36,566 bases of DNA, from positions 1-36,566 of the forward strand of contig JACPBF010000017.1 in the NCBI GenBank assembly GCA_016180425.1, in the 5' to 3' direction. A model generated the notes under the pieces. It did not search any database, was not told the DNA's origin, and saw nothing but the letters and a program-made list of their open reading frames with translations. The translations under genes were made by a program, and so were the position numbers. Of the stretch, positions 3,001-26,361 are shown piece by piece. Every line of letters starts with the position of its first letter. Position 1 is the first letter of the stretch. This stretch comes from Elusimicrobiota bacterium (GTDB taxonomy: Bacteria; Elusimicrobiota; Elusimicrobia; 2-02-FULL-39-32).

Positions 3001-6000
3001 AATTGCAAAAAGAATTTTTGGCCCGGAAGCAGATGTCTTTGAATATACGTTTGAGGAAGATTTTGAAAACAGAACTTTAGAAACAAACGAATCTTTCCTC
3101 TACTCCATGTATCGCAATCGCCTGCCTATGGAATATATTCTTACAGACATCTTGGTTAAGCTTGAATTTAGTAAACCTTTAAGAGATATTCGTAAGGATA
3201 TTAGAAGGGCTGTGTCTAATATAGATTCTGAACTTGCAAAATTAGGTCTTACTCAGGATCATATTAATGAGATTGAAGTTGTTAAAGCGCCATTTTTCCG
3301 CAACCGCGACTGTTACGTGATTGGGAGGATCACTACAGATACCGGATTTTTGCCATTCGCTTTGTTTTTAAAGAACACAAAGCAGGGAATCGTATTGAGC
3401 AAAGTTTTGTTAAATGCGGATGACATCTATAGGCTTTTCAGCTCTACCCGGGCAAATTTTCATGTTCTTTTTTACTATCCTTTGGAACTGGTCACTTTTT
3501 TAATAACCATGATACCCAGAGATCCTGTCTCTATTTACGCATCTTTAGGATTTTATGAATTTGCTGAGCAGCTTCTCTACAAAAAGACGATGAATGAACT
3601 GGCTGAAGGGAATAAAGTTTTTCAAATTGCTGAAGGGTTGCCTGGAAGAGCCATGGTGGTTATCACTCTTCCTGGATTTCCTTATGTGCTTAAAATCATG
3701 AAAGATGTTTTTGAAGGAGGCGCAGCTCTTACTAGAAACGAAGTGGTAGAAAAATATCGTGAGGTGAGTGTGGATCCAATGGGACGCATGTTAAACACAT
3801 TTACATTTGATACCCGTCTTCCTAAGAGATATTTTCATCCTGATCTTCTAGCTTTATTAAAAGAGAGCGCTAAAGAGTCTGTAAGAACCGAGGGAGATTA
3901 TCTTCATATACAACATTCTTTTGTTCAAAGAAAGATCACGCCCTTAAATCTATTTTTAGATCGTGAAGGTAGGAGCTCTCTTGCGCAGCGAGTTGCGCTG
4001 GATTTTGGCAAAACATTGGAGGACATACTTGCAGAGCAGGGGAAATTCCCCAAAGCATCCTTGGGAGACTTTGGCGTGACGGATGACCATCGAGTTCTTT
4101 TTTATGGTTTTGATAAAATTGTTCCGCTTACCTCTGTCACTTTTGATGATCTGCAAAATCTTTTATCTCTTATTCCCCAACAGTTCCATGACCCATTAAG
4201 ATCCAGACATCCTAAATTGTATGATCCAGATTATTTTCGCGAACTTCTGGAAAAGGCATCTCGTCCTAAAAAGAAAAGAAGCGGTTCAGGAAAAATAGTA
4301 ACAGGGATTGCTGTGGGTTTGGTTTCTTTTGGGCTTTTGTTTTCTAAAGATAGCGTGGCTTTAACTCCAGGATTTATCGCATCCCTGTCATTGGATACTG
4401 TTATCGGCTTAGCTCTGCTTGCTGCGCTTTTTCTGATTTCCACAAGGCCAATTCGATCCTATTTAGAAGGTAAGAGAATACATATCTGGCTTAAATTTAT
4501 TCTTAGCTATTCATTGCTTGGCTTTTTGGCATATCTGCTTTATGGTTCTAATCTAAATTTCATTCAGATTCCCTTTTTCTCTTTATTAGCCAATATTTTG
4601 TTGTTTGGATTTTTTACCACTCTTTCAGATTTACTGGGGCAGTGGATGTCAGGGAGAAAAATCAACATTAAACAAACTTTACATGCATTTCCGGCAGGAT
4701 TGTTTATGGGCGCGGTTACTGCTGTTGGTTTTGCCTTACTTAACAATTATTTCCCAAAAGATTCTTCCTTACCTTATTTGCTTTTGGCAATGATTCGGGT
4801 GGTTGGCGCAATGGTAGTGGTACGGGCAAGAACCTTTATTTACGCCCGGTTGGTAGAGAAGATGAGTGCCTCTCAGCAATCTGAAAAAAAATGGGATTTG
4901 AAAGAAATCATTAAAGCCTGGTTTAAAAGCCCGAGCCAGGATAAACAGTTCGAATCATTTTGGATGACACGCATCCCTTCATTTATTAAGAATTTCATCA
5001 TTCAGATGTTTGTTCCTGAGGGAATGTCTGTGGCTGCCGAGGGGGTTGCCACGCAATTTTTTGCGTTATTTTATAGCTGGTCAGTCAATAAAGATTGGTA
5101 TCTGGATAAATCCCTGCGTTGGCAGAAGTGGCGTGAGGAGAAGCCTTTCATAAAGAACCCAGCATTAAATGTAGTTTTTGTAAGGGCTTATCTTATTTTT
5201 TATCCGGTTCTCTATCTTATTTTTATGATCAGTTCCTTTGCCTTTAAGGGTTTTATTCAGCAAAGAAAGAGGTTTAATGAGGGTATTTTAGCGATTGAAG
5301 ATTTAATCAATCGGGGTGAATACAATAGAGCAACACTTATAGCTCAAAGATTGTTGATCTATCCCTATTCACCTAAACAGAGTTATCTGCTTTCCAAAAT
5401 TTTTGCTGAAATCGGGTTGAATGAAAGCAGGAAAAGGGTTAACTCTTCCTTTACATTTATGCAGTCTTTGGTGCTGGCCCGTCAATACTTGGACAAGAAA
5501 TATCCAAAGCAACATGTTTCAATTTTTGGTCAGGAAGAATTTGAATTTTTGTTAAGGGGTATGATTCAAGCTGGACATAACGATGTGCTATTTAAAATTT
5601 TAGCTGAAGAAGAAGATAGACAAAAAGAGTCAGACGATCCTACCCGTTATGAAATTTATGCTCAGATGGCAGCGGAATATTACCGCATGGGCGGTCAACA
5701 AGATAAATTGGACCTCTCATTTTCAAAAGCTGTGAGGCTTGCGAACAAAACTGATTTAGAAAATTCTCATCAATATATCATAGAAAAGCTCGAAGAAGCG
5801 GGGATAACGGCTGATGTATTTATTTATTTGTTTGGATTCGTTCCTAAGGAGGATGGATCAAGAGCTTTGACATCAGTCCGTTTTGGAGAAGCCTATTATA
5901 AGTTGGCATCAGATCAAAATAGCGAAGAATATTTTGCAAAAGCTGAAAAGATGTTTGAGTTAGCAGAGGAAACCGCAGATCAAATCAGGGATGATGATTT

Positions 6001-9000
6001 GAGATCAAAACTCTATGATCTTATTTCAGCCGCTCTCTTGAGCATCCATAGTTTAGAAGAGGCGAAAGAGACACTTTTTAAAGCTCGCAAACAGATCGCT
6101 CCATCTCAATCTTCTACTCATTCAGGCAGACAAAAGCAGGAGACTGAATTTATTGCTAATACAAGGGAAATAATGGATGAGACTGGATTTATTAATAAGG
6201 TAAGAGAAAATGTGGATGAAACCGAATCTTTTTCCCTGCGCATGCTGAATGAGGCAAGGCGCGTTTCTTTGAAAAGGTCAAAAAAATATCTGGATGGTTT
6301 TATTAAGCCCGCTCAACCCCACTATAAACAGATGTTGGATAGTCATGAGAGGAAGTTAAATTCAGTGCAGAGGATGTTTGCTAATTACCGCAAAGCATTT
6401 TTGCGAGGTTTGACACATTCATTAAAAATTCCAATGTTTCTTTCGCTTGGGATGGCGGGCGGTATAAGTGGAGGCGGTGCGGGCAGAGACTCAGAGCTTA
6501 AAAATATAAAGCTGCCTTTATGGAAAAAATTTGTCATTTCCTATCTCATACTAGGATTTTCTATTGGTCTTTTGTATGGTTCTGGTTTAGAGAAGATTAA
6601 GGATCCTATTCTCTCACCAATCCTTAATATTGTTTTGTTCGCTTTATTTACTGTTCTGAATGATATTCTTGCTCAGTGGATCACGGGCAGGAAGTTTCAA
6701 TTAAAACAGACTTTATCCATGATCCCTATAGGAATATTGTTTGGGATATATATGTTTATTGGTTTTTGGATGATTAATTTTTTTATGTCTGCAAATGCTC
6801 CTTATCCATACATTGTTGTGGCAATAGTGAGGATTCTTGCTCATTGGGGATTGGGATATGGACAGGTCACAATCTATGCATTTTTTGTGGGCAAGTCGAA
6901 AAGTGTAAGTGAGGGCCCATTGAGTCGTCAAAAAAGTGATGAAGCATTTCTCATGGCCAGGATTCCTGGATTTATTAACATCTATATCATCCAAATGCTT
7001 TTGCCAACTAATGTTTCTATAGCGGCAGAAGGAATCACAAGCCAACTTTTTAGATTGTTCTACGCGTGGGCAGCCAATAAGGATGGTTTTATCATTCAAT
7101 CTGAAAGGTGGGGTAAATATCGTAAAAATCCATTATTTCTTATTTTCTTCCCTGTAATTATTTTTATATTTTTTCCATTTGATTTTATTAGAAGTCGGAT
7201 TGCTTATAATCATAATAGGAAAGGTGAAAAAAATAAGGAGTCTTCAACAAAAGAAGTTCTAGAAAAAATATTGGCGGTTGAAAAACCAAAACGCCACTTA
7301 ACATTGGAATTCTACCGTTATGTAATGACATTAATTAGAGGCTCTATAGCGGAAGATTTAAGAGAGCATATAGGCAAGCAGGCAGGGGAAAGAGATCAAT
7401 TGCATCGTTTTATAAGAGAGAAAAATATTTTAAAAGCATTTGATGATGTAGTAAAGGAAATTAAATCTGAACACAGAGAGATGCGGAAAAGGGGTTTTGC
7501 ATTGATTGACTCATCTGACGTCCCCAGGGAAGATCCAAGATTTGTAGAGAGTGTGGCTCAGAATATCTACAATCTTGACCTTGCTGAAAGAATCGTATGC
7601 GCGTTTCTTTTATTTAGAATCATGCGGTTCTATTTTCAAATTGCTTATGAAGATAACGATAAAGATAGTCCAACATTTTATTCGTGGCTCAAGCAACTTA
7701 GGGATGAGATAGAACAAAAAGGCATGGATTCATTGATAGAATACGCCCAATCTCAATATTCCATGAGTCCTGAGGAGCTTTCTCGTTTGGAAAGTGCTAT
7801 GAAGTATCGTTTAGATTTTTATTTTCAGAAAATTGACGGCATTTATGAATCTTATTGGAGAAAGAGTAAATCTCCCGCAGCTCTTACATGGGATGTAGCG
7901 GATTTAATTTTTAATATACAGATTAAGAATATCCTTTATTTAAAGCAGAGTAAATTTTTTGAACCCTACTACAAATCTTTCGGATTAGTTTATGCTGATC
8001 GGACGATTGCGCAATTCGATCAGGAGAAATGGAAACCAACGGCCGCTAGACGAAAACCCACACGGAGTTTCCTTACAGTTCTCCTCACTGCTCCACTAGG
8101 AATTTTGGGCGGATTGGGAATGGCGGGCGGGGCTACTGTCGTGCCAGTAATTAGAGAAGAACCGCATGATCTCCTTATGGGATCTGGCGGCGGCGTTTTA
8201 AAAGCAAGGCGCAGTTTACTCAGCCAATGGCTGAAGGAAAAAATGAGATTTACTGATGAACAGATCGATTGGTATGAAACAAGGATCGCTCATTTTGAAG
8301 CCTGGCCCCAAGGGATATTGGTTAGCGCTATTCACGGCATTTTAATCTTGTTGATCTATAGCGCTTTTGGGGTTTCTATTGATCACCCATCCATTGTTGA
8401 TCTTTTAAGCGCGTCTGCAATCCATTTAATTCTTCAATCAATTTTTGGGGGACTGCTTGCGGAATTTTTAATTAAAATGCATGAAAAAGTTGGCAAAAAT
8501 GTAGGACGGGGTCCGCCTGAATCCCATTTTATGGCATCTTCCTACTCCTTTGTTGTTTATGCGATTGTTTTATGTTTTTATTTTCTCACTCCCTATTTTC
8601 CAGACAGTATATCTATAGTTATTCTTATTAATTTTCTCAGTTATACGATTGCAGATGAAATTCATCATATTTTCTGGAATTTATATCATCCCAGCGGCCA
8701 GCGCCGCAGTTTAATCCCTCTGAACCCTATAGAATCACAAAGAGCGATTTTAAGTTTAAGCCGATCTTTTGTAACAGATGTAAAAGCAAAGCTGATAGCT
8801 AAAGGGTTGGATGATTTGGCAAATGAATTCCAATCCCTTATATTAGAGCTTCATCCTTTTATTAAGGTTAGCGCTAAACATGGCAGATACAGGCTGGTGA
8901 ATGAGGAAAAGGTAGAACGTTTTCTTTATATTACAAAACAAGCAGGCTTTAATCTGGATATTAACGGTTTTATATGGGCAGAACTTTTATATCACTATTT

Positions 9001-12000
9001 CGAGTCTTATAACCTTTTAAGTTTGGGAGGAGGATACACAAACATTGTTTTTACCACACAATATCAGGTTCGAGATTTTTTTGAGAAGATGAGTAAAGAG
9101 TTCGGACTTGAACTACCCACAGATTACGAGGATAAGCGGTTGGTTCCCTTGACCATGCAGCTTTATGTAAAGTTTTGGCTGCAAAGAATAGTCCCTGGAC
9201 TTGATCCAAAGGTTTTTGGTTTTCATATTTTTGAAGGATTTGGAGAAAAAATTGTGCGTGCCTTAGACGGCACATTGCTCTGGCAGATAGAGTATTTCTT
9301 AAGCCTTTTAACTCCGGGAGAAAGATACGCAACTGGTTATGCTCATAATTTAAAAGAAGGAAAAGAAAAAAGTGTTGAGGAAGTTCGAAAAATGATTCTC
9401 AATCGGCTTAAGATAAAAGATGAGTCGCCTGAAACCGAATTTGAAAGAATGAAAGAAGCGTACGCTAAATATAAAAAAAGTTCATATGGATTTCCCATAT
9501 TAGTTACTTTGCCCAAAGCAGGAGAAGAAAAAGTAGGAATAGAGCCGATTTCGCATAAGAAGCTAAATAAGATGAGTCAAATCAATGGCGCGGTCAATAT
9601 TCATGATGATTTTGAGATCAGTAAAGATGCTATAGGTCCAGTTGAAAAGTTCGATGAAATTAGGGAACAAATCATTAGTAAAATTCTCTCAGCGGATCGT
9701 TTGGGGTTTAAGGGAATAGTTTTTGATAAAACGTGGATTCAAGAAATGGAAATTAAGGTTTATCAAGATATCGCAAATATTATTATTGATGTTCTAAGAG
9801 AGATGGCAAGTCAAAAAAGTCTTCAGTCTTTGGAAAAGGTTGCGATCGTTTTACCTGAAAAAGTCGAGGATGTTGTAGCTCATCAGAATGCCCGAGATAT
9901 GCCCTCAACGGTGTCATTATTTCCAGAAGATTTAAAAAATGGCGATATTGTCCATATTCAAAGCCCATTTAACTATTTAGAGAGAGCTGTACTTTTTGAA
10001 GAACCTGCATTAGAAAATGGTTTTACCGCTTCTCTGCTTCCCATCCATCATTGGTCAGACGATCTGTTTGGTTTTTTAGCATCTAAACGTTATCTTGATA
10101 AGAGGCAGGTATCATCTCTTGTGGCATATCCTGTCTCCTCTTTAGTTCGATATGGGCTTCGCATTGAAAGGGAGACAGTTCAAGAAGATGATTATTTAAT
10201 CAAAGTAGGGCAGAAGTTCTTAGTTACTCATGATGATATCCCTTATTCAGCTACAGTCATTGGAATCATGCACAGGCATTTTATTTTTATTTTGAACGCG
10301 CCTTTGAATGAAAAGGTTGAAAATCTGGGCGGCTATGCGATGTATATGTATATTGAAAATGCAGAGGAATTGGTTAAAAAGGGAGAGTGGGAACTTATTG
10401 AAGAGTGGAGTAAAGAAGATGTTCGTGGCGTGGGTGGGATCATTCCTTTTGTTAAAGATCCGATCGTAGGAATGCTTGAAAAGCTCTTTCCAAAAATCGC
10501 TAAGGAACGTTTAGAAAAGATTTACAATGTAGGAATTGCGTTTATAGCAGATAACTTATTTGCATTTAGAGTTGGTGGTTTAATCCCTTTGGCGCTTGCC
10601 TTGCTAATGAGCGGAAATTTAGATTTTGCTTTCAGGGTTGCTTATATTTTTACTTGGCCTGCGCTAACTTTGCTGCATTCATCTGTACTTAACCTAAGGC
10701 TTGGCTCTCGCGCGCCTCCGCCAGAGAACATTTGGTTAGCTGCATTGATCAGCATGATTAATCTTTCCCTTTTATTTTTTCCTCTTTCCACTTCAGACTT
10801 AATCGCCTTCTCATTTCTTTCTCATTTCCTAGTGAATTTAACCGCATCACTCTTAGGAGAAATGAAGCAGATGAGAGGAATAGTTAGTGCGGCCCGGCAG
10901 ATTTTTTATGGTGTTCTTCCCATTTTATCCAAGCTAAAGCTATTAATGCAAACACTAAAATTGACAATCCGGTTATCATATTACTTTTCACCCCCTGACG
11001 ATGGAGATATAGCTATCGAAAATACACTAAATGACAGTCCTAAAATAACGACTAGGAATTTAGTCAAAACATTATTGGCTGTCCAAAATATTTTTTCATC
11101 CATTATTTTAACTATAACACAACACCCCAATAGAGTCAAGGTAACATTAAAGAGAAGGAATTTCCTTACCATTCTTCTCACTGCCCCTTTAGGTCTTATG
11201 GGTGGGATGGGGATGGCAGGGGGATTGGGTGGACTAGGAGGGAGGAATAAGAAGCAGAAGGTAGTAGATCAGGTAAAGAGGGAAATTCAGAAAAAAGATT
11301 TTGAGAAAGCAGTTAGAAGCGCTGAAAAATTTGATCCGCAGTTTATTTTAGACCCAGATTTTCTTTTTTTGGTAAAAGCAGTCATAGAAGCTGGCATGGT
11401 TGAAACTCTTTATAAAGTTGCTGGGCAGGATCATTCAGAAAATCAATTTAAAAATTATGTGGCAATTGGAAAGGAATTGTTTGAGAGACAGAAGGAATCT
11501 AATGCCACATTAGCTTTTATTCTTGCTGGAAAAACAGCTAAAAAAGCAGAAGATTTTCTTTTTATTGTTGAAAATTTATTGGAAGTTGAAAGAATTCAAT
11601 TCGCTTACTCTTTTGCGCAAAAAATTAATTTTTTATCTCCTTTGCGGAATCAAGCTTTTGTAAAAATCGCTCTTGCCTTTAGAAAAAAAGGGGAGAGGGA
11701 AAAGGCAAAAGAAACTGTTTTTAAAGCAAGAGCGCCAAAAGAAATTGTTGCGGAGGATGCCAAACCAATCTTAGCTGCCAGTCCTAAACAAGAATCCCTG
11801 ACCTTTCAAGATTATTTGAATGCGATTTTATCAATCACTAAGGATCTAAGAAGAAAAGTTATTCAAATTTCTGGGTTAGATATTGAAAAAAGAAAATTGG
11901 CCCTTGCGCTTTTGGAAGAAGGAGCCATTGTGATCGTCTCTGACCCGGACGGGAAAAATATACAGCTTTTGTATGACGGATTAGATGCAGAAAAAAGGAA

Positions 12001-15000
12001 AGAGGTTGATCAGAGACTATTTACTTTTAGAGGCAGAGGAGTTTATTCCTTTAAAGACTTTCCAGACACACAAGGAAGTTTAAAAAGGCTGATGCGTCCG
12101 GGTTTAAGAACCAAGCTAGGGATTCCTGGTATTGATATTTTTGTAACGGATAAGATAGATAACAATTTGATCCTAAAACTTCAAAAAGCAAAGGTAGAGC
12201 AGTTGATTGTTCCTCTAGTTTTAGAAGATGGATCTATAAAAGAGCTTAAAAGTTATAGTGTTGCTGACTTGCCAGTTGTCGCTAATAGTCAAAGCGCTTC
12301 ACAAACTCAAGCCAAAGCCAAAGCAACTTTATCATTTATAACTGAAATATCTAAACAATTAGCTCAGATTGTGAAAATGACAGGAGTTGAGGTGGAAAAA
12401 GCTTTATGGGATCTGGCTCATCAAATTCGGACTGAAGATAATACAATTGCTCTAGAAAATCATGATTTAAGCCCAGTTTTAAATGCGATTTATAAAGGCG
12501 GTATTGAAGATCAATTAATTCCGCCTATTGTAGTTGTCAATCAGCAGGGTGAACCTATTGGAACCATTAAGGATGGGGATAGAGCAATATTTATTAATTT
12601 TAGAACAGATCGAGCAAAACCAATCACCTACGCGCTTACTCCTGCCGCAGGCTATGAAGGGCTTGAAGGTGGATTAGTAAGTAATTTTCCTAAACCCAAA
12701 GTTCATTTTGTAACCATGACAAATTATGATGATGCTTTTGTCGAACATGTGCAAGTAGCATTTGAACCAGCGCCGTTTGGCAAAACCTATTCTGAAATTA
12801 TTGCGGCTCATGGTTATAAAGAGGTTCGATTCATGGAATCTGAAAAATGGCGCGCTGGAACCTGGTTTTTAGATGGACGAAGAAACATAGTGGATCAGTT
12901 GGGAATTGATGTGCGTGTAGTCCCTTCACCTAAAAAAGCTTCTTATGTGGAAGTGCCTGAGATGAGCGCAGTTGCATTAACTGATGAAGTCATATCTGTG
13001 ATTGAAAATGATCCTTCTGTTACTGATATTTTTGTTAATTATGCCAATCCAGACATGGTCTCTCATGCCTTTGCTCAAGTAAATCCAAAAGGAGATTTTG
13101 ACGCTGTAGTAAAAGCGATACAGGTTGTAGATGAACAGTTAGGAAGGTTGGTGGAAGCAGCTTTGCAAAAGGGGTGGGTGATTGCAATCACAGCGGATCA
13201 TGGAAACGCAGAAGAGCTCTATGATAAAGAAGGAAATCCCATGCCCGGGCATAGTACAAACAAAGTTCCATTTATTTTGTTGAGTCACAATGATTGGGAG
13301 CTTAGAAATATTGATTTTATAGAGGATGGATCATTATCTAATATCGCTCCTACTCTTTTAGAATTGCGTGGAATAGCTGCTCCTAAGGAAATGACAAGCG
13401 ATAGCCTTATTTTTTCCCATGTAGATTCTGATCCTAGTAGAAAAATAATGCGCATTGTTTTGGATGGATGGGGTTTAAGCAAGCAAAAAAAAGGAAACGC
13501 GATTGCGCGCGCTGGGGAATTAACAAAACTGAATATGGATCATTGGTTGACAAGCCAAACTTCAGGACCTGGCAGGTGGTTAGATAGGTATCCACACACT
13601 GCTTTAAATGCTTCTAGTGTAGAGGCAGGTTATCCTATGGGCGTTGCAGGAACTACAGAGTTTGGTCATGTAAATTTAGATGGAGGAAGACATTTACAAT
13701 CTGATCTTACTTTAATCAATCAGGCTTTAGAAGATGGATCTTTTGCAAAGAATATGGCGTTGCTCAACAGCATGTTTGAGGCTTTACAGAATGAAACCTC
13801 TCTTCACCTGATGGGTCTTGTTTCGCATGGATCAAAGGGAGATATCCATGCTTCTATGGAGCATCTTTTTATGCTTTTAAGAATGGCAAAAGCAGTTGGT
13901 CTTAAAAAAGATCAGGTAAAAATTCATGTTTTTACAGATGGCCGAGATTCTGGCCCGCAATCCGCAGTTCAGTTTATTAAATTATTGCAAATTGTGTTAG
14001 ATGATTTAGATCTGGGGATGATAGTAGATGTTATGGGACGAGGCTGGGCCATGGATAGGGATAATCGTTGGCTGCGGATTAGTTCTGCTTATGATGCTAT
14101 GGTCGGCGGCATTGGCGCGATCTATGTTCAAGAATCTTTTACAGACCCTTCAATAACAGCTCCTAAAAAAGAAAAAAGCGCAAACTGGATTGAAAAATTA
14201 GGACAGTTTAGCAAAGTGATTTTACTGGCAATGGTGGTTCAGGCAGCTTCTGCCTGTTTTGATTCTTCTGTCTCTAAATCTCAAGCCAATCCTATCAGTC
14301 GTCCTGGAGCTATAGCAGCGCCCCAACTTACTCCAAAGCCACAAACTCCTATAGCCACACCCTCTCTTCCCATAGGAATAGATGTCCTTGTCTCTGAAGC
14401 TGCTCGCGCAGAAGCCCGGGCAAATATTGAAAATGGTTTAAAGGGAACTGTGACGGCTGAGAAACGAAAAGTTCTGGAAGATTTAATGCAAAAAATTGAG
14501 GCGCGCATTGCAGAATTTACTAACACAAAAACCGGGCTCCCTTTGGACACAACTAAAAAATTGGATAAGACTACTACTAGTAATATTGGTAAATTTATTG
14601 AATTAGTAAGCGTTGCTGAAAAATTAGAAAGAAAAATTCCTTTTAAAGATGGGTTAACTCATCAGGATGTTGTCTTGTTAGGGCTTAAAAGTTTAGAGTC
14701 TGCAACAGATAACTGTCAGTGCGATGGTTTTACTCCCACACACCTTTATCATGATAACCCTTCTAAGCTCGATCCAAACTCAGATATTTCCTATCTGGAT
14801 CAAGGAAATTTAATCCCTGGAATGGAATCAGCCAGAATGGTTTTTAATGGGAATGCAGAAACTGCGCGGATCGCTTCTAAAATTTTAAATGGGATGAATT
14901 ACAAACTTCTTCTTAGGGACGATACGACCAGATGGGCTTTAAAAGATTATCTTTTAGGAGGTGGAGCAAAGTTCCTTGGCCCGGGAAAAGTTTCTTATAT

Positions 15001-18000
15001 TAGGGATTGGGGGCTGAGAGGTCATACAGATAACTTTTGGCTCTTTATAGGCGCGGTTGGAACTGAAAACGAAGCGCATAGAATTTTGCCTCAATATCTT
15101 TTTGCTAAAGATAGAGAGGGGGATGAAACATTTGAACTTGTTCCTGGTTTTCCTGTAGTGGCGATTCCAGCAGATGTGGATGATAAAAGACGGAAACAAA
15201 ATGGATTTTACCATCGCAATTATGATGACGGAGCTTTATTCTCAAGAGCCATGCCAACTTTAGATACAGTTGGTTCTTCTTATGATGCGCTGGCTCTTTC
15301 TGAATTTATTGCCCAGATCGCTTTTGCCTATACTCGCGGCTATCGTTGGGTTGGGATCAGCGCTGCAGCAGATTCAAGCGGGGTGGAGTACAATGGTTAT
15401 GGTAATACAGACCTTCGCGAATCCGCTCCCCATTCATCTGCAATGCTATTGGGCAGGAATCTTAAGCTGGATAATTTAATAATTGAAAATTTAATGCGCT
15501 ACCCAACTTTTGAAGGAGTTCCTACGGATGCGGTTAATAATGGCACAGGCGAGTATGCGCGCCAACAAACTCTTTGGGACATGATGCTTTTATATTTGGC
15601 TGTTGCCAACTATCTTTATGAGGATACTCCAAGAAATCTGATCATGCAAAGCCCAACCATTAAAAATGTTCAAGCTCGCGCTCCGGAATATTTTTCAGCT
15701 TCGAACCCAGAAAGATTAAAAGAGTTAGCGGATAAAAAAGTAAAAGATCTATTAGATTTTATTGAGCGACAAAAATTTTCTAGCCTTAAAAGTTCAGCAG
15801 CTCCTTCCTTTGGTGTGAGTACTCTTTTAACTAGAAGAAGCAATAGCGCAAAAATGAGATGGGGGTTGACTGCCAGCCTGAAAACTTTTCTTATTTTTGG
15901 TTTCACAGGGGTTCTAGCTTTTGTTTCAATTGTAGATAAGGCGATGGCGGAAACAGGTAAAGCGCTAGATCCTCAAGTGGTAAACAATACAGCTGGATAT
16001 TTATCTTTAAATTCTATTCTTTTACCATTAGCAATCATAGTTTTAGCAGGCGCATTAGTTGGATTTTTAATTTATTTAGCCCGCAGACAAAAGAGGAGTA
16101 GGAGTACTAGTTTGCTTGGGTTTCAAGGAATAAAGACTTTTGTTCGTACCTCTAGGTATGGTTTAGAGGGGCAAACTGAATTGAGCATGGAAGATCAACA
16201 ACTCTTAAAACAAGGAGCGGATCAGCCTGATTTTGATAAGAACAGCCCCTTAGATGCTTTTGAAAAGCCTGCGGATGTTACTAGAGAGGATTTTTCCGCT
16301 GCAGGGTCCTTCTTAAGAGTTGTTCAGCTTTTTGGCAGAGGACATTTAAAAGATCGTGATCCACCTGCTATATGGCCTACCCGTCCAAAGGACAATTTCG
16401 ATTCCCGAGCTCCTCCTAGTGACCCAACAATTGTTTCGGATGCCAATGCTCTACCTGAAAGCCAGCAGTTTGTTGCACAAGAGGCTCCAGCCTCAAATTC
16501 CGATTTTAATCTTCTATCCAAAGGTCAAGAGTTTTCTCAAACATTTTCCCCAAATCCAGTTTCTCCGCCTAAACTCAATAAAGATGAAACTAGAGCTATC
16601 TTCCGAAAAATATACATTCATCTGGATGGAATTGGTTTGGCTTCCACCATTGCTGAATTTCATAAAAATAATATCTTTAAAATTTTGTCTGAAAAAGACG
16701 GCATTTCCATGCAAGAAATAACTGATTATTTGTTGAAACAGGGTAAAGTAGAAAAAGTGAATAAAGGTCACATGCATGCCGCAATGGTATTGTTAGAAAT
16801 GCAAGGGTGGTTAAAGCGCAAAGGGAAATCCGCTTCTGATTCCATGCAATTTTATTTAACTCCTCAAGGGAAAATCGCTTTGGATCGTGTTGAGCCCTAT
16901 AAAGAAGTTACAGATTTTGTTCCAGTTTTAGCTCGAATGAAAGAGTTTTTGTTTGATTCAAAAACCCCATTAATCATCAATCAATTTAGTTTTCAGGAAC
17001 TTGTGAAAAAATCACAAAGGCAGTGGGATATTCTACAGGGAAAACCTGATCCTCAAGATAAAACGGATGAAGTCAATCTTCGTATTGCAGATCATTTGAG
17101 AGGATTTTTAATCGGTCCTGTAATGGTCGCGCTAAAAGACGCTAAAGTATTTGAGAAATTCCATCCATTAACGCATTCTTTGGACTTAACAAAAATTGGA
17201 GGTAATCTGTTTAATTTAAGGTCTGCGTTTGATCTTTTAGAGCAAGAGGGATGGGCAGTTCGAAACGGCAATGTGGTTACATTAACCCGCAAAGGAATGT
17301 TTGCTGCTGAAAAAGCCTGGACTTATGGGGTCACGGTTTCTTATTTGCCAATGTTTAGCCGTCAAGGAGAATTATTTTTTGGTGAACATCCAGAAAAAGT
17401 ATTTGAACGGGATGCAAACAACATTGAAACCCATTTAAACCGCCCCATGAATTTATCTGCCTGCACAGCTATACATGACAGGTACTTTAAGGAATTAACT
17501 AACAACCTTAAAGAGATTTATGACAATAGTGATTTTGAGCTCCAGCCATCTTACATTCAAGATACAGGCGGCGGGGATGGTTCACTTCTTTTGCATATGC
17601 ATGAGTATATTTTAAACAATACTGAACGCGGACGGCTGATGAAACAAGAATTGGCTGAGACCGGTAAGATAGAAAAATATAAAATCAGTCTGATTGATGT
17701 GGATATAAATCCTGAATCTTTGGAGATTGCTCACCAGGTATTAAATAGAGAGGGAATTCCAAACTTAGTTTTTGAAGGTACTGTCAATGATCCTAGAGCG
17801 ATTGCTCAAGAATTAGTCATGCGCGGTATTCCTTTGAATAAAATTCTTCATGTCCATTCTTTTGTGGATCATAACCGGGATTATCAAACTCCCAAAGAGG
17901 ATTGGAGCTTAAGAATCACTTTCGCTGATGCTGCCTTTGTGGATAAGGTTACTGGCCGGACGATTTCTAACGAAGAATTACAGCAAAATTTAGTTGAACA

Positions 18001-18850
18001 TTTTAGAGATTGGGGAGTACTGATTAATGAATTTGGATTGCTCATGATTGAGTCGCATGTTTTGCCTGCTAGTTATGTGGCGGAACATCCAGGTGAAACG
18101 CTTAGCATCCCATTTTATGCAACTCATGCGTATTCTGGTCAATTCACCCCTGAGTTAAAAATTAGCAACGAGGCTTTATTAGAAAACGGTTTAATCTTGA
18201 AAAAACAGAGCCTCTTCCCAAGTGAAGGAACTCCAACTATTTCAGTCAGCCGTATTGTTTCTCTAAAATCTAGTCCGTTAGGAACAGATGAATCTCACAG
18301 TTCTCTAATAGAGAATAGCGATCATGTTCTTACCTTAGATTTTAGTAAGGATGAGAACATTAAAGCTCAGGCAGAATCTTATCTTATGCAAATTCGCTCA
18401 ACTAGAGTTCCAGAACTGCTAAAGACTGTTTTAATCTTTAATGTTTCTTTTGAAAAATTAGACCCAGAGTTATTCAAGTTTGAGCAGGAACTGCTTTCTT
18501 TGGTTCTGGAGAACAAAATTACCATGGAAGAATTTTATGCGGTCAGGCCAAATTGGATTGTGACTTCGCGGGAGGAGATGAATGGTTCTGGCATTATTTT
18601 GGCTGAATCTGGAAAAGTTGCAACTGAACTTTTCCATACTTGGGTTTGGGCTCAAGCTCAAAACATGGGCTGGCAGCTAAGCCATAACTTTGCTCTTTCT
18701 ATTGTGACGCAAGATGCCAATCTATGGCAGTCCACAGAGAACAGGTTTATTCAAATTTTCCAGATATTAACCAACGGAACCATTCTGCCAATGAGCCCAG
18801 AATTAGAACAGGAAGAAAGAGAAAAAAGCGTATCCTCCATTAGTTCCTAA
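2..18850 (+). CDS. Giant multidomain membrane protein, 5'-partial (at least 6,277 aa)
   Basis: A single open frame runs from the left edge to TAA at 18848-18850. The first ATG (17) has no Shine-Dalgarno (SD) sequence and the codons before it (from 2) are also open, so the real start is upstream of the window. Residue numbers below count from that ATG. Domain order: unknown helical region with a membrane pair (about 180-230); degenerate 2-hydroxyacid dehydrogenase (277-815); Pro/Ala/Gln-rich linker (825-888); AceK-like (890-1415); Mpv17-like membrane module (1488-1695); TPR-like (1750-2050); second Mpv17-like module (2165-2358); helical and membrane regions of unknown family (2400-3710); second TPR-like region (3750-3920); Rossmann-like remnant (3930-4100); permuted phosphoglycerate mutase (4144-4712); glucoamylase-like (4830-5245); signal-like segment plus anchor (5280-5365); methyltransferase (5515-6085); C-terminal domain (6102-6277). 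The many membrane segments place it in an envelope membrane. Function of the whole is unknown; no frameshift was seen. Confidence 0.9.
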   Translation, partial: QATGGMDPNEITPEEAGVDGTLSVLTEAIVRIQAKLRSQNIHQDSNKQGIKEREEAFQKIGNPQIFKPKSPIYREEVSYKEREYQVFSADNEDEKLSKRLLNDPQGELEAEEILDGAKNVWSGQMKDPFTGEVGQTFAVGEKPENVLAQVAKRIRVTLNNSTKDKSSKIIKFIKRVLERNEIKAAAWIFGVPLSLIAYHGIHGNTWLATSWAIGAVLFLVSSAFISLLILVIFGRRSEFIHLIIISRLPQALQRIWYRITIPVYPIEISGLRFVRLKVNQPKAKVLVIEPLSLEIISELNRRFGDMDIDLLDIRSELVKEGESWKPGIHGKLLELVKSQHYDYVVGYINENYDEDFFREAKLKGLILFSTAIHHIDLDAATKYGTVVTNAPGPTTIPVAEGLIAFFLDVIFSNKVQTKKSKGYTRLSELKSDPENSLVIAQALWYSLMRNVLKLEEMFKFGASDKYVRVGVGEEATVYHGKIGQSVYDESSPTIGIIGLDEVGLKLAEIAMAHEPAIIYVLQDELNGAKLLRLNSYKEILEQTSTTERLAIRIQPVSLSELLKHSSYVLRTPAGVQRMKGSRMKIASDANQIFIKDLDELIHLTSPITVGVLGLGRIGEASAQRFISLGANLLIQQRDPGRQEYIEKRERLAQLAEVVGGRLNRSIDVQYVDKEIFLRASNVISLSPPKKTNETVGWVNREGLEIFGELAQGSLRAIISITKDVVDETAMITYLNLHPEVEYRTDVASDEEKGGFFKRFIDPKGNRLKNAKVSGHTSAAHGGSKKAKQRIAFNNNLRQLMINKRPANQLNDMRLDSSGVTFLDQTSEAIAHAQGPASIAAAPPASQIQNSHAQAPLAQTQIPAPATQSPSPQITAPPIPAGTPTVVTSHGPMGQLAKTAAEMIEAAFITYYEKFFTITARAKRRFDQMDWENLLQDVEERLGLYNNTLNDLENSLRALLKNKLRDIPMWIEIQGLYSGNLIDNRILGANPYVIGMVFCNSIAKRIFGPEADVFEYTFEEDFENRTLETNESFLYSMYRNRLPMEYILTDILVKLEFSKPLRDIRKDIRRAVSNIDSELAKLGLTQDHINEIEVVKAPFFRNRDCYVIGRITTDTGFLPFALFLKNTKQGIVLSKVLLNADDIYRLFSSTRANFHVLFYYPLELVTFLITMIPRDPVSIYASLGFYEFAEQLLYKKTMNELAEGNKVFQIAEGLPGRAMVVITLPGFPYVLKIMKDVFEGGAALTRNEVVEKYREVSVDPMGRMLNTFTFDTRLPKRYFHPDLLALLKESAKESVRTEGDYLHIQHSFVQRKITPLNLFLDREGRSSLAQRVALDFGKTLEDILAEQGKFPKASLGDFGVTDDHRVLFYGFDKIVPLTSVTFDDLQNLLSLIPQQFHDPLRSRHPKLYDPDYFRELLEKASRPKKKRSGSGKIVTGIAVGLVSFGLLFSKDSVALTPGFIASLSLDTVIGLALLAALFLISTRPIRSYLEGKRIHIWLKFILSYSLLGFLAYLLYGSNLNFIQIPFFSLLANILLFGFFTTLSDLLGQWMSGRKINIKQTLHAFPAGLFMGAVTAVGFALLNNYFPKDSSLPYLLLAMIRVVGAMVVVRARTFIYARLVEKMSASQQSEKKWDLKEIIKAWFKSPSQDKQFESFWMTRIPSFIKNFIIQMFVPEGMSVAAEGVATQFFALFYSWSVNKDWYLDKSLRWQKWREEKPFIKNPALNVVFVRAYLIFYPVLYLIFMISSFAFKGFIQQRKRFNEGILAIEDLINRGEYNRATLIAQRLLIYPYSPKQSYLLSKIFAEIGLNESRKRVNSSFTFMQSLVLARQYLDKKYPKQHVSIFGQEEFEFLLRGMIQAGHNDVLFKILAEEEDRQKESDDPTRYEIYAQMAAEYYRMGGQQDKLDLSFSKAVRLANKTDLENSHQYIIEKLEEAGITADVFIYLFGFVPKEDGSRALTSVRFGEAYYKLASDQNSEEYFAKAEKMFELAEETADQIRDDDLRSKLYDLISAALLSIHSLEEAKETLFKARKQIAPSQSSTHSGRQKQETEFIANTREIMDETGFINKVRENVDETESFSLRMLNEARRVSLKRSKKYLDGFIKPAQPHYKQMLDSHERKLNSVQRMFANYRKAFLRGLTHSLKIPMFLSLGMAGGISGGGAGRDSELKNIKLPLWKKFVISYLILGFSIGLLYGSGLEKIKDPILSPILNIVLFALFTVLNDILAQWITGRKFQLKQTLSMIPIGILFGIYMFIGFWMINFFMSANAPYPYIVVAIVRILAHWGLGYGQVTIYAFFVGKSKSVSEGPLSRQKSDEAFLMARIPGFINIYIIQMLLPTNVSIAAEGITSQLFRLFYAWAANKDGFIIQSERWGKYRKNPLFLIFFPVIIFIFFPFDFIRSRIAYNHNRKGEKNKESSTKEVLEKILAVEKPKRHLTLEFYRYVMTLIRGSIAEDLREHIGKQAGERDQLHRFIREKNILKAFDDVVKEIKSEHREMRKRGFALIDSSDVPREDPRFVESVAQNIYNLDLAERIVCAFLLFRIMRFYFQIAYEDNDKDSPTFYSWLKQLRDEIEQKGMDSLIEYAQSQYSMSPEELSRLESAMKYRLDFYFQKIDGIYESYWRKSKSPAALTWDVADLIFNIQIKNILYLKQSKFFEPYYKSFGLVYADRTIAQFDQEKWKPTAARRKPTRSFLTVLLTAPLGILGGLGMAGGATVVPVIREEPHDLLMGSGGGVLKARRSLLSQWLKEKMRFTDEQIDWYETRIAHFEAWPQGILVSAIHGILILLIYSAFGVSIDHPSIVDLLSASAIHLILQSIFGGLLAEFLIKMHEKVGKNVGRGPPESHFMASSYSFVVYAIVLCFYFLTPYFPDSISIVILINFLSYTIADEIHHIFWNLYHPSGQRRSLIPLNPIESQRAILSLSRSFVTDVKAKLIAKGLDDLANEFQSLILELHPFIKVSAKHGRYRLVNEEKVERFLYITKQAGFNLDINGFIWAELLYHYFESYNLLSLGGGYTNIVFTTQYQVRDFFEKMSKEFGLELPTDYEDKRLVPLTMQLYVKFWLQRIVPGLDPKVFGFHIFEGFGEKIVRALDGTLLWQIEYFLSLLTPGERYATGYAHNLKEGKEKSVEEVRKMILNRLKIKDESPETEFERMKEAYAKYKKSSYGFPILVTLPKAGEEKVGIEPISHKKLNKMSQINGAVNIHDDFEISKDAIGPVEKFDEIREQIISKILSADRLGFKGIVFDKTWIQEMEIKVYQDIANIIIDVLREMASQKSLQSLEKVAIVLPEKVEDVVAHQNARDMPSTVSLFPEDLKNGDIVHIQSPFNYLERAVLFEEPALENGFTASLLPIHHWSDDLFGFLASKRYLDKRQVSSLVAYPVSSLVRYGLRIERETVQEDDYLIKVGQKFLVTHDDIPYSATVIGIMHRHFIFILNAPLNEKVENLGGYAMYMYIENAEELVKKGEWELIEEWSKEDVRGVGGIIPFVKDPIVGMLEKLFPKIAKERLEKIYNVGIAFIADNLFAFRVGGLIPLALALLMSGNLDFAFRVAYIFTWPALTLLHSSVLNLRLGSRAPPPENIWLAALISMINLSLLFFPLSTSDLIAFSFLSHFLVNLTASLLGEMKQMRGIVSAARQIFYGVLPILSKLKLLMQTLKLTIRLSYYFSPPDDGDIAIENTLNDSPKITTRNLVKTLLAVQNIFSSIILTITQHPNRVKVTLKRRNFLTILLTAPLGLMGGMGMAGGLGGLGGRNKKQKVVDQVKREIQKKDFEKAVRSAEKFDPQFILDPDFLFLVKAVIEAGMVETLYKVAGQDHSENQFKNYVAIGKELFERQKESNATLAFILAGKTAKKAEDFLFIVENLLEVERIQFAYSFAQKINFLSPLRNQAFVKIALAFRKKGEREKAKETVFKARAPKEIVAEDAKPILAASPKQESLTFQDYLNAILSITKDLRRKVIQISGLDIEKRKLALALLEEGAIVIVSDPDGKNIQLLYDGLDAEKRKEVDQRLFTFRGRGVYSFKDFPDTQGSLKRLMRPGLRTKLGIPGIDIFVTDKIDNNLILKLQKAKVEQLIVPLVLEDGSIKELKSYSVADLPVVANSQSASQTQAKAKATLSFITEISKQLAQIVKMTGVEVEKALWDLAHQIRTEDNTIALENHDLSPVLNAIYKGGIEDQLIPPIVVVNQQGEPIGTIKDGDRAIFINFRTDRAKPITYALTPAAGYEGLEGGLVSNFPKPKVHFVTMTNYDDAFVEHVQVAFEPAPFGKTYSEIIAAHGYKEVRFMESEKWRAGTWFLDGRRNIVDQLGIDVRVVPSPKKASYVEVPEMSAVALTDEVISVIENDPSVTDIFVNYANPDMVSHAFAQVNPKGDFDAVVKAIQVVDEQLGRLVEAALQKGWVIAITADHGNAEELYDKEGNPMPGHSTNKVPFILLSHNDWELRNIDFIEDGSLSNIAPTLLELRGIAAPKEMTSDSLIFSHVDSDPSRKIMRIVLDGWGLSKQKKGNAIARAGELTKLNMDHWLTSQTSGPGRWLDRYPHTALNASSVEAGYPMGVAGTTEFGHVNLDGGRHLQSDLTLINQALEDGSFAKNMALLNSMFEALQNETSLHLMGLVSHGSKGDIHASMEHLFMLLRMAKAVGLKKDQVKIHVFTDGRDSGPQSAVQFIKLLQIVLDDLDLGMIVDVMGRGWAMDRDNRWLRISSAYDAMVGGIGAIYVQESFTDPSITAPKKEKSANWIEKLGQFSKVILLAMVVQAASACFDSSVSKSQANPISRPGAIAAPQLTPKPQTPIATPSLPIGIDVLVSEAARAEARANIENGLKGTVTAEKRKVLEDLMQKIEARIAEFTNTKTGLPLDTTKKLDKTTTSNIGKFIELVSVAEKLERKIPFKDGLTHQDVVLLGLKSLESATDNCQCDGFTPTHLYHDNPSKLDPNSDISYLDQGNLIPGMESARMVFNGNAETARIASKILNGMNYKLLLRDDTTRWALKDYLLGGGAKFLGPGKVSYIRDWGLRGHTDNFWLFIGAVGTENEAHRILPQYLFAKDREGDETFELVPGFPVVAIPADVDDKRRKQNGFYHRNYDDGALFSRAMPTLDTVGSSYDALALSEFIAQIAFAYTRGYRWVGISAAADSSGVEYNGYGNTDLRESAPHSSAMLLGRNLKLDNLIIENLMRYPTFEGVPTDAVNNGTGEYARQQTLWDMMLLYLAVANYLYEDTPRNLIMQSPTIKNVQARAPEYFSASNPERLKELADKKVKDLLDFIERQKFSSLKSSAAPSFGVSTLLTRRSNSAKMRWGLTASLKTFLIFGFTGVLAFVSIVDKAMAETGKALDPQVVNNTAGYLSLNSILLPLAIIVLAGALVGFLIYLARRQKRSRSTSLLGFQGIKTFVRTSRYGLEGQTELSMEDQQLLKQGADQPDFDKNSPLDAFEKPADVTREDFSAAGSFLRVVQLFGRGHLKDRDPPAIWPTRPKDNFDSRAPPSDPTIVSDANALPESQQFVAQEAPASNSDFNLLSKGQEFSQTFSPNPVSPPKLNKDETRAIFRKIYIHLDGIGLASTIAEFHKNNIFKILSEKDGISMQEITDYLLKQGKVEKVNKGHMHAAMVLLEMQGWLKRKGKSASDSMQFYLTPQGKIALDRVEPYKEVTDFVPVLARMKEFLFDSKTPLIINQFSFQELVKKSQRQWDILQGKPDPQDKTDEVNLRIADHLRGFLIGPVMVALKDAKVFEKFHPLTHSLDLTKIGGNLFNLRSAFDLLEQEGWAVRNGNVVTLTRKGMFAAEKAWTYGVTVSYLPMFSRQGELFFGEHPEKVFERDANNIETHLNRPMNLSACTAIHDRYFKELTNNLKEIYDNSDFELQPSYIQDTGGGDGSLLLHMHEYILNNTERGRLMKQELAETGKIEKYKISLIDVDINPESLEIAHQVLNREGIPNLVFEGTVNDPRAIAQELVMRGIPLNKILHVHSFVDHNRDYQTPKEDWSLRITFADAAFVDKVTGRTISNEELQQNLVEHFRDWGVLINEFGLLMIESHVLPASYVAEHPGETLSIPFYATHAYSGQFTPELKISNEALLENGLILKKQSLFPSEGTPTISVSRIVSLKSSPLGTDESHSSLIENSDHVLTLDFSKDENIKAQAESYLMQIRSTRVPELLKTVLIFNVSFEKLDPELFKFEQELLSLVLENKITMEEFYAVRPNWIVTSREEMNGSGIILAESGKVATELFHTWVWAQAQNMGWQLSHNFALSIVTQDANLWQSTENRFIQIFQILTNGTILPMSPELEQEEREKSVSSISS
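846..2460 (+). other. Domain: degenerate D-2-hydroxyacid dehydrogenase (SerA-like) with doubled Rossmann motif
   Basis: Residues about 277-815 of the giant protein follow the SerA/2-hacid_dh pattern: a NAPGPTTIPVAEG segment matching the family's NAPG.NT..VAE, a canonical nucleotide-binding GLGRIG (608-613), and a C-terminal SGHTSAAHGGS (His770) matching the catalytic-His TPH..AST segment. A second, weaker Rossmann motif, GLDEVG (493-498), precedes the canonical one, giving two tandem nucleotide-fold starts with an insertion between them. The Arg usually found at the N-terminal substrate site is Leu/Phe in 'GLILFSTAIHHIDL', and the Arg of the usual 'ARG..VDE' is missing in 'SITKDVVDETA'. Known family chemistry (NAD-dependent oxidation of 3-phosphoglycerate) is therefore doubtful here; it may only bind nucleotide. 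Confidence in fold is good, in activity low. Confidence 0.7.
2480..2684 (+). other. Low-complexity Pro/Ala/Gln/Ser linker
   Basis: Residues about 822-889 are almost only A, P, Q, S, T, H and I (for example APPASQIQNSHAQAPLAQTQ). It separates the dehydrogenase-like region from the AceK-like domain and looks like a flexible interdomain linker, possibly protease-accessible. Confidence 0.75.
2685..4260 (+). other. Domain: AceK-like (isocitrate dehydrogenase kinase/phosphatase), probably catalytically altered
   Basis: Residues about 890-1415 align over nearly the whole of E. coli AceK as I remember it. Landmarks: RRFDQMDWENL near the start (AceK QRFEQADW), GRAMVVITLPGFPYVLKIMK (AceK GMVMLVFTLPGF.RVFKVIK, containing the ATP-binding Lys; here Lys1226/1229), DPMGRM (AceK DRVGRM), QRKITPLNLFLD (AceK ERRMVPLNIWLE) and FGVTDDHRVLFYGFDKI (AceK FGVTRHGRVVFYDYDEI). 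About 525 aa against about 578 in AceK; the missing part is mostly near the C-terminus. The AceK segment 'PGDMLFKNFGV' is 'PKASLGDFGV' here, so the catalytic Asp (D457, remembered numbering) is lost, Asn462 is Asp1351, and Asp475 is Gly1364; Asp477 is kept (Asp1366). The AceK identity is strong; the normal glyoxylate-bypass role is unlikely. No isocitrate dehydrogenase or glyoxylate genes lie nearby. Confidence 0.88.
4280..5110 (+). other. Domain: polytopic membrane module copy 1 (Mpv17/PMP22-like)
   Basis: A TM pair (about 1425-1475) is followed by residues about 1488-1695 with several hydrophobic helices. The segment LSDLLGQWMSGRKINIKQTL resembles the Mpv17 'GD.I.Q......D..RT' signature, and the tail with IKNFIIQMFVPE... 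FYSWSVNKD resembles the Mpv17 end (NFYLVP... WNSYLSWK). Mpv17-family proteins are small four-helix channels, best known in eukaryotes. The family assignment is tentative, but the membrane topology and the duplication (see copy 2) are plainly visible. Confidence 0.6.
5260..6120 (+). other. Domain: TPR-like helical repeat region 1
   Basis: Residues about 1748-2050 are a run of amphipathic helix pairs with TPR-like spacing: 'EDLINRGEYNRATLIAQRLL', 'YAQMAAEYYRMGGQQDKLDL', 'AKAEKMFELAEETADQ', ending in LEEAKETLFKARKQIAPS. That ending recurs as REKAKETVFKARAPKE in the second TPR-like region (11270-11760), so the two are probably duplicates. Likely a protein-interaction scaffold. Confidence 0.6.
6510..7100 (+). 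other. Domain: polytopic membrane module copy 2 (Mpv17/PMP22-like)
   Basis: Residues about 2165-2358 repeat module 1 in order: ISYLILGF...LLYGSGL, LNDILAQWITGRKFQLKQTL, YIVVAIVRILAHW, and MARIPGFINIYIIQMLLPTN... LFYAWAANKD. By eye the copies share roughly 40% of residues in the core. A glycine-rich GMAGGISGGGAG stretch lies just before it. The duplication unit appears to be TPR plus glycine motif plus membrane module. Confidence 0.6.
7200..12440 (+). other. Unassigned helical, membrane and Rossmann-like central region of the giant protein
   Basis: I recognise no family from 7200 to 11260. Visible parts: soluble helical region (7200-8040); Tat-like/Gly-rich segment (8050-8135); three or four TM helices (about 8300-8670); a soluble region (8700-10500) with mixed alpha/beta character; another TM cluster (10530-10900); a second Tat-like/Gly-rich segment (11145-11245). 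TPR-like region 2 (11270-11760) follows, then a Rossmann-like stretch (11800-12300) with 'EEGAIVIVSDPDG' and 'GIDIFVTDKID' strands and no complete glycine motif. Confidence 0.5.
12440..14155 (+). other. Domain: circularly permuted cofactor-independent phosphoglycerate mutase (GpmI-like)
   Basis: Both halves of iPGM are present in swapped order. First (12440-13430) comes the normally C-terminal half: INFRTDRAK (Arg4196, Arg4199), SEKW with Lys, PEMSA, NYANPDMVSH (Asp4346, His4350), TADHGNAE (Asp4394, His4395) and PGHSTN (His4412). Then (13448-14150) comes the normally N-terminal half: MRIVLDGWG, GNAI, GHVNLDGGR, HLMGLVSHG...DIHAS, FTDGRD and AMDRDNRW. The halves join directly through 'SRKI', so old C- and N-termini are fused and new termini lie in the transferase domain. 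Known iPGM metal and phosphate ligands are nearly all kept, but the nucleophilic Ser of GNSEVGH is Thr4547 (GTTEFGH). Thr acts as nucleophile in other alkaline-phosphatase-superfamily enzymes, so activity (perhaps altered) is possible. Family identity is strong. Confidence 0.92.
14205..14262 (+). other. Internal lipoprotein-signal-like segment (lipobox at Cys4747)
   Basis: After the mutase, Lys is followed by a hydrophobic core and a lipobox-like end: VILLAMVVQAASAC, then FDSSVSKSQ and a Pro-rich linker. This is the form of a Sec/lipoprotein (SPase II) signal, but it sits about 4,730 residues into the chain. It could simply be a transmembrane helix. Confidence 0.5.
14490..15750 (+). other. 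Domain: glucoamylase/DUF3131-like (alpha/alpha)6 carbohydrate-active domain
   Basis: Residues about 4825-5245 begin TKTGLPLDT...TTTSNIGKFIEL, like the 'TGLP.D......TSPTNIG' start of DUF3131 and related glucoamylase-like families, followed by YLDQGNLIPGMESAR (family: TVDSGNL). Later come 'FSRAMPTLDTVGSSYDALAL', 'RWVGISAAADS' (family WG.S.S), an 'APHSSAMLL' segment and 'GEYARQQTLWDMMLLYLAVA'. Related enzymes act on beta-1,2-glucans or other polysaccharides. It follows a lipobox-like segment, so an extracytoplasmic carbohydrate role is plausible. Substrate and catalytic acids are not assigned. Confidence 0.6.
15854..16110 (+). other. Internal Sec-signal-like segment followed by a TM anchor
   Basis: MRWGLTASLKTFLIFGF...VDKAMAETGK has a basic n-region, hydrophobic core and an A-M-A|E SPase I-type motif (Ala5311). 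About 20 residues later a second helix, LLPLAIIVLAGALVGFLIYL, is followed by a basic stop-transfer stretch (ARRQKRSRS). Without cleavage this is a simple helical hairpin. Confidence 0.55.
16560..18270 (+). other. Domain: SAM-dependent methyltransferase with winged-helix-like N-terminal part
   Basis: Residues about 5515-6085. The N-terminal part has winged-helix-like helices (FKILSEKDGISMQEITDYLL, VLLEMQGWLKRKG ... YLTPQGKIALD) repeated in weaker form around 17090-17310. The core has SAM motif I as DTGGGDGSLLLHM (from Asp5849), an acidic strand end LIDVDINPESLEIAHQVL, a 'GTVNDP' segment, and LHVHSFVDHNRDY (His5945). These resemble the class I C-methyltransferases associated with bacterial polyketide synthases (AprA-type) as I remember them. 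No PKS genes are nearby, so the substrate is unknown. Confidence 0.65.
18320..18850 (+). other. Shared C-terminal domain (copy in giant protein 1)
   Basis: Residues 6102-6277. It starts DHVLTLDFS, has WIVTSREEM in the middle and ends with an 'ALSIVTQDANLWQST' strand/helix and 'TNGTILPMSPELEQ'. The second giant protein ends with a matching series (DHILEFHLS, YLITRDEIE, LDIFTDQMIFKENW, PTRIVPISSQMGEL) of nearly the same length. The terminal position in both suggests a sorting, anchoring or assembly domain; no known family recognised. Confidence 0.65.
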
Positions 18851-26307: not shown

Positions 26308-26361
26308 ATTTTCTCCAGTTCTTTGCTTTATCTCACTTGGTTTTTTAGAGTGTGCAATCAT

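Follow-up and report, generated by a model that had tools for sequence, protein, structure and literature searches.

Can a textbook glycolytic enzyme be circularly permuted in nature, and what would such an enzyme do inside a giant protein? One locus in the 2.6 Mb genome of an uncultured Elusimicrobiota bacterium raises this question. Our window, i.e., the whole stretch of 36,566 nucleotides that was analysed (G000:C34:1-36566), is occupied over half its length by a single reading frame, and an original prediction made from the letters alone had placed within it an iPGM-type phosphoglycerate mutase with swapped halves and a threonine instead of the nucleophilic serine. We have analysed the order of this domain, its recurrence in other genomes, its active site and its possible role.

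Domain order within a giant reading frame

The giant frame combines several enzyme-like domains with hydrophobic clusters and diverged internal repeats. The features of the window that matter here are the following:

2 to 18850, plus strand: giant open reading frame of 6282 codons in the window, with the 5' end truncated by the contig start
992 to 2251, plus strand: D-2-hydroxyacid dehydrogenase-like region (Pfam PF00389/PF02826; glyoxylate reductase-like pieces among PDB sequences)
2699 to 4162, plus strand: region like AceK, the isocitrate dehydrogenase kinase/phosphatase (Pfam PF20423/PF06315; aligns to 3eps 9-517)
10553 to 11116, plus strand: hydrophobic, putatively transmembrane segments clustered upstream of the permuted domain (frame residues 3518-3705)
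12440 to 14155, plus strand: circularly permuted iPGM domain, 572-aa translation (phmmer, Pfam, NCBIfam)
12482 to 13414, plus strand: old C-terminal part, 1ejj 221-510 (fragment residues 15-325)
13415 to 13441, plus strand: nine-residue link between the old C- and N-termini (fragment residues 326-334)
13442 to 14125, plus strand: old N-terminal part, 1ejj 5-213 (fragment residues 335-562)
13655 to 13657, plus strand: Thr codon aligned with the 1ejj Ser62 nucleophile position
14216 to 14272, plus strand: hydrophobic segment directly downstream of the permuted domain, with a borderline score of 1.78 (frame residues 4739-4757)
16607 to 18226, plus strand: AprA-type N domain, winged helix and methyltransferase domain (Pfam PF23526/PF23589/PF23525)

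The predicted giant membrane-protein setting is borne out by the length of the frame and by 23 hydrophobic segments in a simple Kyte-Doolittle scan. Its counterpart in a second Elusimicrobiota genome (G001, 92% identical) is complete inside its contig and has 8021 codons between stops. Proteins of more than 5000 amino acids are described as enriched in Elusimicrobiota (PMC11573180). Among the other domains, the dehydrogenase-like region has a long stretch separating its catalytic from its NAD-binding matches, and the region at 16607 to 18226 matches AprA methyltransferase 1 (6b39, E 8.2e-49). Of 340 Elusimicrobiota genomes, two have AceK above the cut-off, both times inside these giant frames. 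In the alignment of the AceK-like region, E. coli FPGDMLFKNFG is paired with FPKASL-GDFG, so that the region seems to be without what we take to be the catalytic Asp, and the kinase site looks degenerate.

The proteins of the window and G001 are colinear apart from G001-only blocks beside diverged hydrophobic-module repeats (window positions ca. 6377-6436 and 8096-8107 versus G001 residues 2962-3409 and 3988-4498), and one of these blocks includes a partial malate synthase match. Elsewhere in the window, positions 29298-36395 hold a 2365-aa ORF with no Pfam family above the cut-off and a strong GC skew near 33-35 kb, and a 544-aa ORF at 24730-26361 (minus strand) carries a CHU_C type IX secretion signal match at its C-terminus.

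The order of the domain is indeed swapped, with the C-terminal half first, in all three types of comparison. Against the iPGM of G. stearothermophilus (1ejj), phmmer gave two pieces in swapped order (E 1.9e-100), and Pfam iPGM_N matched with its positions 132-217 at 12455-12733 and its positions 1-131 at 13715-14122. The NCBIfam model for iPGM, TIGR01307, reached 411.5 bits in two stretches and passed its cut-off of 330.65, and the model for the apgM subfamily, TIGR00306, stayed at 21.2 bits with a cut-off of 320. The link between the old termini, which had been described as very short, comprises nine residues. Canonical iPGMs run from the N-terminal part of the phosphatase lobe through the phosphotransferase lobe to the C-terminal part of the phosphatase lobe, an order that this domain does not follow. 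We take Pfam iPGM_N, which is broken between positions 131 and 132, to be the phosphotransferase lobe; since the break thus lies inside that lobe, the domain matches suggest an inverted nesting. The phosphotransferase lobe sits inside the phosphatase lobe in ordinary iPGMs, and in the permuted form the phosphatase lobe would sit inside the phosphotransferase lobe.

Recurrence and origin of the permuted order

Among the Elusimicrobiota, the same swapped order is present in G001 (92% identical), in G005 (44% identical, with Thr kept) and, in degenerate form, in G028. A protein search of 60 genomes including the window's own matched 26; one match ran across the join in its own genome, G001, G005 and G028, and the other places among the matches listed were halves only. 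With a four-row profile, 180 of 340 Elusimicrobiota genomes were matched, and only these four span the join among the matches listed (to about E 5e-47). BLASTP of the fetched loci gave canonical order outside the four. The permuted domain is under purifying selection, with a dN/dS between window and G001 of 0.158, next to 0.126 for the methyltransferase, 0.185 for the dehydrogenase-like region, 0.197 for the AceK-like region, and 0.282 and 0.328 in two other stretches beside the domain.

In G028, the giant protein is encoded by a 7856-codon frame (L037, L038) with matches to Glucosamine_iso, RNB and part of A_deaminase besides the degenerate permuted iPGM. When the A_deaminase stretch was itself checked for a permutation, all 5 of its PDB sequence matches were phosphoglycerate mutases. 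Near the permuted domain of G028 the scan flagged no hydrophobic segment, so membrane embedding is not general.

Beyond this phylum, stand-alone permuted iPGMs are encoded in eight genomes (G379, G381, G395, G396, G397, G442, G445 and G613), and the statement that iPGM has one fixed order in the known family members is not supported. These forms first emerged from a set of 392 genomes built around G334, which is a distant member of the Elusimicrobiota; this set reached into other phyla. Single matches across the join came from G379 (567-codon frame; 532 codons from its ATG) and G381 (535-codon frame; 533 codons from its ATG), and the permuted form is present in 2 of the 4 genomes examined of the G381 phylum and in all 3 of the G379 phylum. 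In 386 genomes around G381, a set overlapping the earlier ones, there were at least nine single-span places (the eight stand-alone genes plus G569) among the best three candidates per genome and the matches listed to about E 5e-72. G442, G445, G613 and G569 belong neither to Elusimicrobiota nor to the phylum of G379 or that of G381, because these last two account for three and four genomes. The distribution of the permuted form is patchy, and in family f129 a permuted match was seen in G442 only, of three genomes, among the matches listed. The loci are:

L090:6327-7922, L091:1820-3418, L093, L117, L118, L128, L129 and L130: stand-alone permuted iPGMs
L153:5785-10197, minus strand: degenerate permuted iPGM of G569 in a 1471-codon frame

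The eight stand-alone frames measure 527-652 codons from stop to stop, and the G397 frame is truncated by a contig end. All stand-alone forms have GRRGE(RPE) in place of the canonical DGRD stretch, so the position of Asp154 is Gly in 8 of 8, and the link is short in all 13 permuted forms (tails of 5-10 residues). On TIGR01307, the proteins of G381 and G379 score 486.7 and 456.6 bits; both pass the cut-off, and routine annotation would therefore name them ordinary iPGMs.

Several observations concern the surroundings of these genes. The G569 frame has, by eye, a hydrophobic stretch in its N-terminal region. No common partner emerged from the neighbour ORFs of six stand-alone genes and of G569 (nine proteins scanned, including the G569 frame itself). 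At the G445 locus (L155:1-3325), a pyruvate phosphate dikinase-like frame and a PF03618 kinase/pyrophosphorylase lie near the permuted gene. In G379, a short match covering 28 positions at the end of the permuted profile (G379:C90:46526-46609, in a 68-codon frame ca. 1.7 kb from the stand-alone gene) may be a fragment of a second copy.

Other sequence collections were searched as well. Contigs of named genomes gave one Spirochaetales gene in canonical order. In viral contigs, queries A1 and A11 retrieved no relative, while query A2 and one canonical protein found eight and four loci; those that were checked showed canonical order or too little sequence, and no permuted order was seen among them. 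Phage and plasmid collections yielded 22 and 44 matching records, and all of the matches listed (8, 8, 10 and 10) were two-piece, as with canonical order.

A swapped order could in principle be created by faulty assembly or by a spurious frame, and it is true that the gene extends past the contig start. Such an artefact has next to no probability given the uninterrupted frame, the low dN/dS of the domain and, above all, the swapped order in 12 other genomes, which rules out misassembly, the objection to which the original prediction had seen itself exposed.

To place the permuted forms among their relatives, their rows were rearranged into canonical order before trees were built. A single branch separates the 13 permuted rows from 36 canonical ones (98/97, and 98% of 200 bootstrap trees). 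G028 and G569 sit on long branches. The letter composition is unusual in G028, G379, G395, G442 and one canonical row. With the seam columns removed and G028 and G569 omitted, the split of 11 permuted against 36 canonical rows was recovered with 100/94 and in 100% of the bootstrap trees. As the tree is unrooted and includes a sample of canonical iPGMs, one side of this branch is not by itself a clade.

The original prediction had proposed an origin of the permutation through tandem duplication and trimming of the ends. That it arose separately inside the giant gene, by such changes to a canonical iPGM, we consider quite unlikely; this concerns the origin and not the function. In its favour, a tree without the stand-alone rows groups window, G001 and G005 (100/100) and requires two order changes, because G028 (branch of 7.68) is not placed with these three. 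Against separate origins, the stand-alone forms fall together with those in giant proteins, both with all rows and in the trimmed alignment without the degenerate ones, and the link is short throughout. The permutation is thus a property of a wider group and not an accident of this giant gene, and these trees favour a single origin that would be older than the giant gene.

Active site and predicted fold

The residues that the original prediction had named in the active site are all present, with numbering five below that of the open frame: Thr4547, counted from the ATG at nt 17, is frame residue 4552 when counted from nt 2. The positions of H123, R153, D154, R185, R191, R261, R264, E335 and K336 (1ejj numbering), which we take to be substrate residues, are kept in the domain. 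Likewise kept are the metal ligands D12, D403, H407, D444, H445 and H462, and roles have been described for the equivalent C. elegans residues (PMC5382265).

The substitution at the nucleophile position stands out from the canonical family as had been claimed. We compiled 46 canonical rows by requiring LxDGxG, DHG and a length of at most 700 aa, removing copies and leaving the nucleophile position unconditioned, and all 46 have Ser at this position. So do all rows of a second canonical set (36 rows, 15 from the first set and 21 new ones under the same filters) and all 8 stand-alone permuted rows. Thr is found in the window, G001 and G005, and Asp in G028. A threonine nucleophile is natural in NPP and in Sphingomonas SPAP, which share with the domain as predicted here both this residue and a two-metal site (PMC3145672). 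In E. coli alkaline phosphatase, the change from Ser to Thr lowers kcat ca. 4000-fold (PMC11677397) and has been described as not tolerated (PMC3145672).

The claim of a near-complete active site holds up, too: besides the nucleophile, the window and G005 each retain all 15 active-site residues, G381 and G379 14 of 15, and G028 and G569 5 of 15. Across 98 near-invariant columns of the 36 canonical rows, the window keeps 75, G005 70, G381 70, G379 74, G028 48 and G569 54. The contrast of 15/15 with 5/15 points to selective retention of the active site in the lineage of the window and to its loss in G028 and G569.

These two members look dead and are both part of large proteins, which makes a non-catalytic role conceivable for the window's domain as well, i.e., a structural or binding function within the giant protein. 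We regard this reading as unlikely. The loss of most active-site residues in G028 and G569 speaks for it, as does the AceK-like region of the same protein, which looks degenerate if we have assigned its residue role correctly. On the other side stands the complete set of 15 residues in two proteins as distant as the window and G005, compared with 5 in the apparently dead ones.

Structure prediction makes it plausible that the rearranged chain is still foldable, as had been proposed. An AlphaFold model from 16 rows had a mean pLDDT of 69.1 and a pTM of 0.70, with parts below 50 that include residues 255-277 and 357-406, the latter with the nucleophile. A second model from 14 rows had a mean pLDDT of 65.0 and a pTM of 0.65; its alignment covers the join region and reaches residue ca. 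465, blocks of 82-91 surround the join at residues 301-340, and residues 1-40 and 533-572 are below 50. Alignments that mixed both canonical halves, in which the C-terminal tail was misaligned, were left out of folding. With the first model, all 22 Foldseek matches at E ≤0.001 were phosphoglycerate mutases, and VIA aligned its residues 8-326 to 1o99 with a Z of 14.1 and an rmsd of 2.8 over 278 residues, a match that speaks for residues 8-326 only as structural aligners follow chain order. Together with the dN/dS of the domain, these two moderate models speak for a foldable domain, which would most likely form one two-lobed, two-metal enzyme.

Cellular role and known relatives

What else these genomes encode bears on whether the domain serves glycolysis. 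The window's own genome has no second iPGM_N match, encodes an enolase, and shows one match to the gpmA-type model TIGR01258, which is below the cut-off. It also has a match to PF10143 (apgM-type) in a 405-codon frame, and this family, which may cover enzymes besides mutases, is matched in 11 of the 12 other genomes with the permuted form, the exception being G028. We found no canonical iPGM in G379, G381, G395, G396 and G397 (all matches seen) and none among the matches listed for G442, G445, G613 and G569. As 12 of 13 genomes have an apgM-type enzyme, the domain probably does not act as the housekeeping mutase, and glycolysis would be served by the apgM-type enzyme encoded elsewhere in the genome. 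As the cell's sole phosphoglycerate mutase the domain was rejected as a default assumption, given the PF10143 enzyme.

It could still be a working mutase for the 2PG/3PG step, perhaps at the membrane. In its favour, the checked substrate and metal residues are all kept save for the exchange of Ser by Thr, and the genome is without another iPGM_N match. We judge it unlikely, as apgM-type enzymes are present in its own genome, G001 and G005, and as none of the 46 canonical rows has Thr in place of Ser.

What we consider the most credible explanation, and hold with moderate confidence, is that the domain belongs to an unrecognised clade of permuted iPGMs, was captured by the giant protein and is still a metal-dependent phosphoryl-transfer enzyme. 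The members of this clade would be iPGM-type enzymes, circularly permuted and part of the alkaline phosphatase superfamily, that are free-standing in other bacteria, and a giant membrane protein of one Elusimicrobiota lineage would have captured one of them. This domain would most likely catalyse phosphoryl transfer or hydrolysis through a phospho-Thr intermediate, as in natural Thr-type relatives, and would have a specialised role.

In its likeness to known enzymes the domain is closest to GpmI (TIGR01307; 1ejj/1o98), with which it shares both lobes, all checked metal and substrate residues and a profile score above the cut-off. It differs from GpmI in its swapped halves, the probable inverted nesting, the putative Thr nucleophile and its embedding in a giant protein. 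With the stand-alone permuted iPGMs it has the order, the region of the break, the short link and the side of the branch in common, whereas these are of ordinary size, have a Ser nucleophile and carry GRRGE for DGRD. NPP and SPAP, to our knowledge, are without the phosphotransferase lobe of iPGM. A natural circular permutation that leaves the active-site loop in place has been described for another mutase, the alpha-D-phosphohexomutase PGM3, but this enzyme belongs to a different superfamily and has ca. 60 residues of domain 1 moved (PMC5570346). The giant-protein survey (PMC11573180) deals with giants of Elusimicrobiota and other bacteria, and its main text makes no mention of permutation. 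In the open-licence literature, we found no earlier description of a permuted iPGM; papers that came up there concerned PGM1 paralogues, barley and SGNH hydrolases.

More broadly, we think there is a reasonable case for a permuted clade of bacteria that arose once and long ago and occurs, besides Elusimicrobiota, in three or more lineages of phylum rank. It would have moved to new phosphoryl-transfer chemistry, with Asp154 replaced by Gly in the stand-alone forms and Ser by Thr in the giant-protein form. Members of it would have become part of giant or large proteins in no fewer than two phyla, and its proteins would carry the annotation of an ordinary phosphoglycerate mutase. A glycolytic enzyme from the textbooks that is permuted in nature allows a test of whether the closing of two lobes depends on which lobe bears the chain ends, and its Thr and Gly substitutions offer natural variants with which shifts among mutase, phosphatase and other reactions of the alkaline phosphatase superfamily can be studied. 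These results also suggest that profile annotation hides permutations, so that a phosphoglycerate mutase may be ascribed to genomes in which the protein has another activity. They also provide a case in which an enzyme domain within a giant protein of bacteria is traceable to free-standing relatives.
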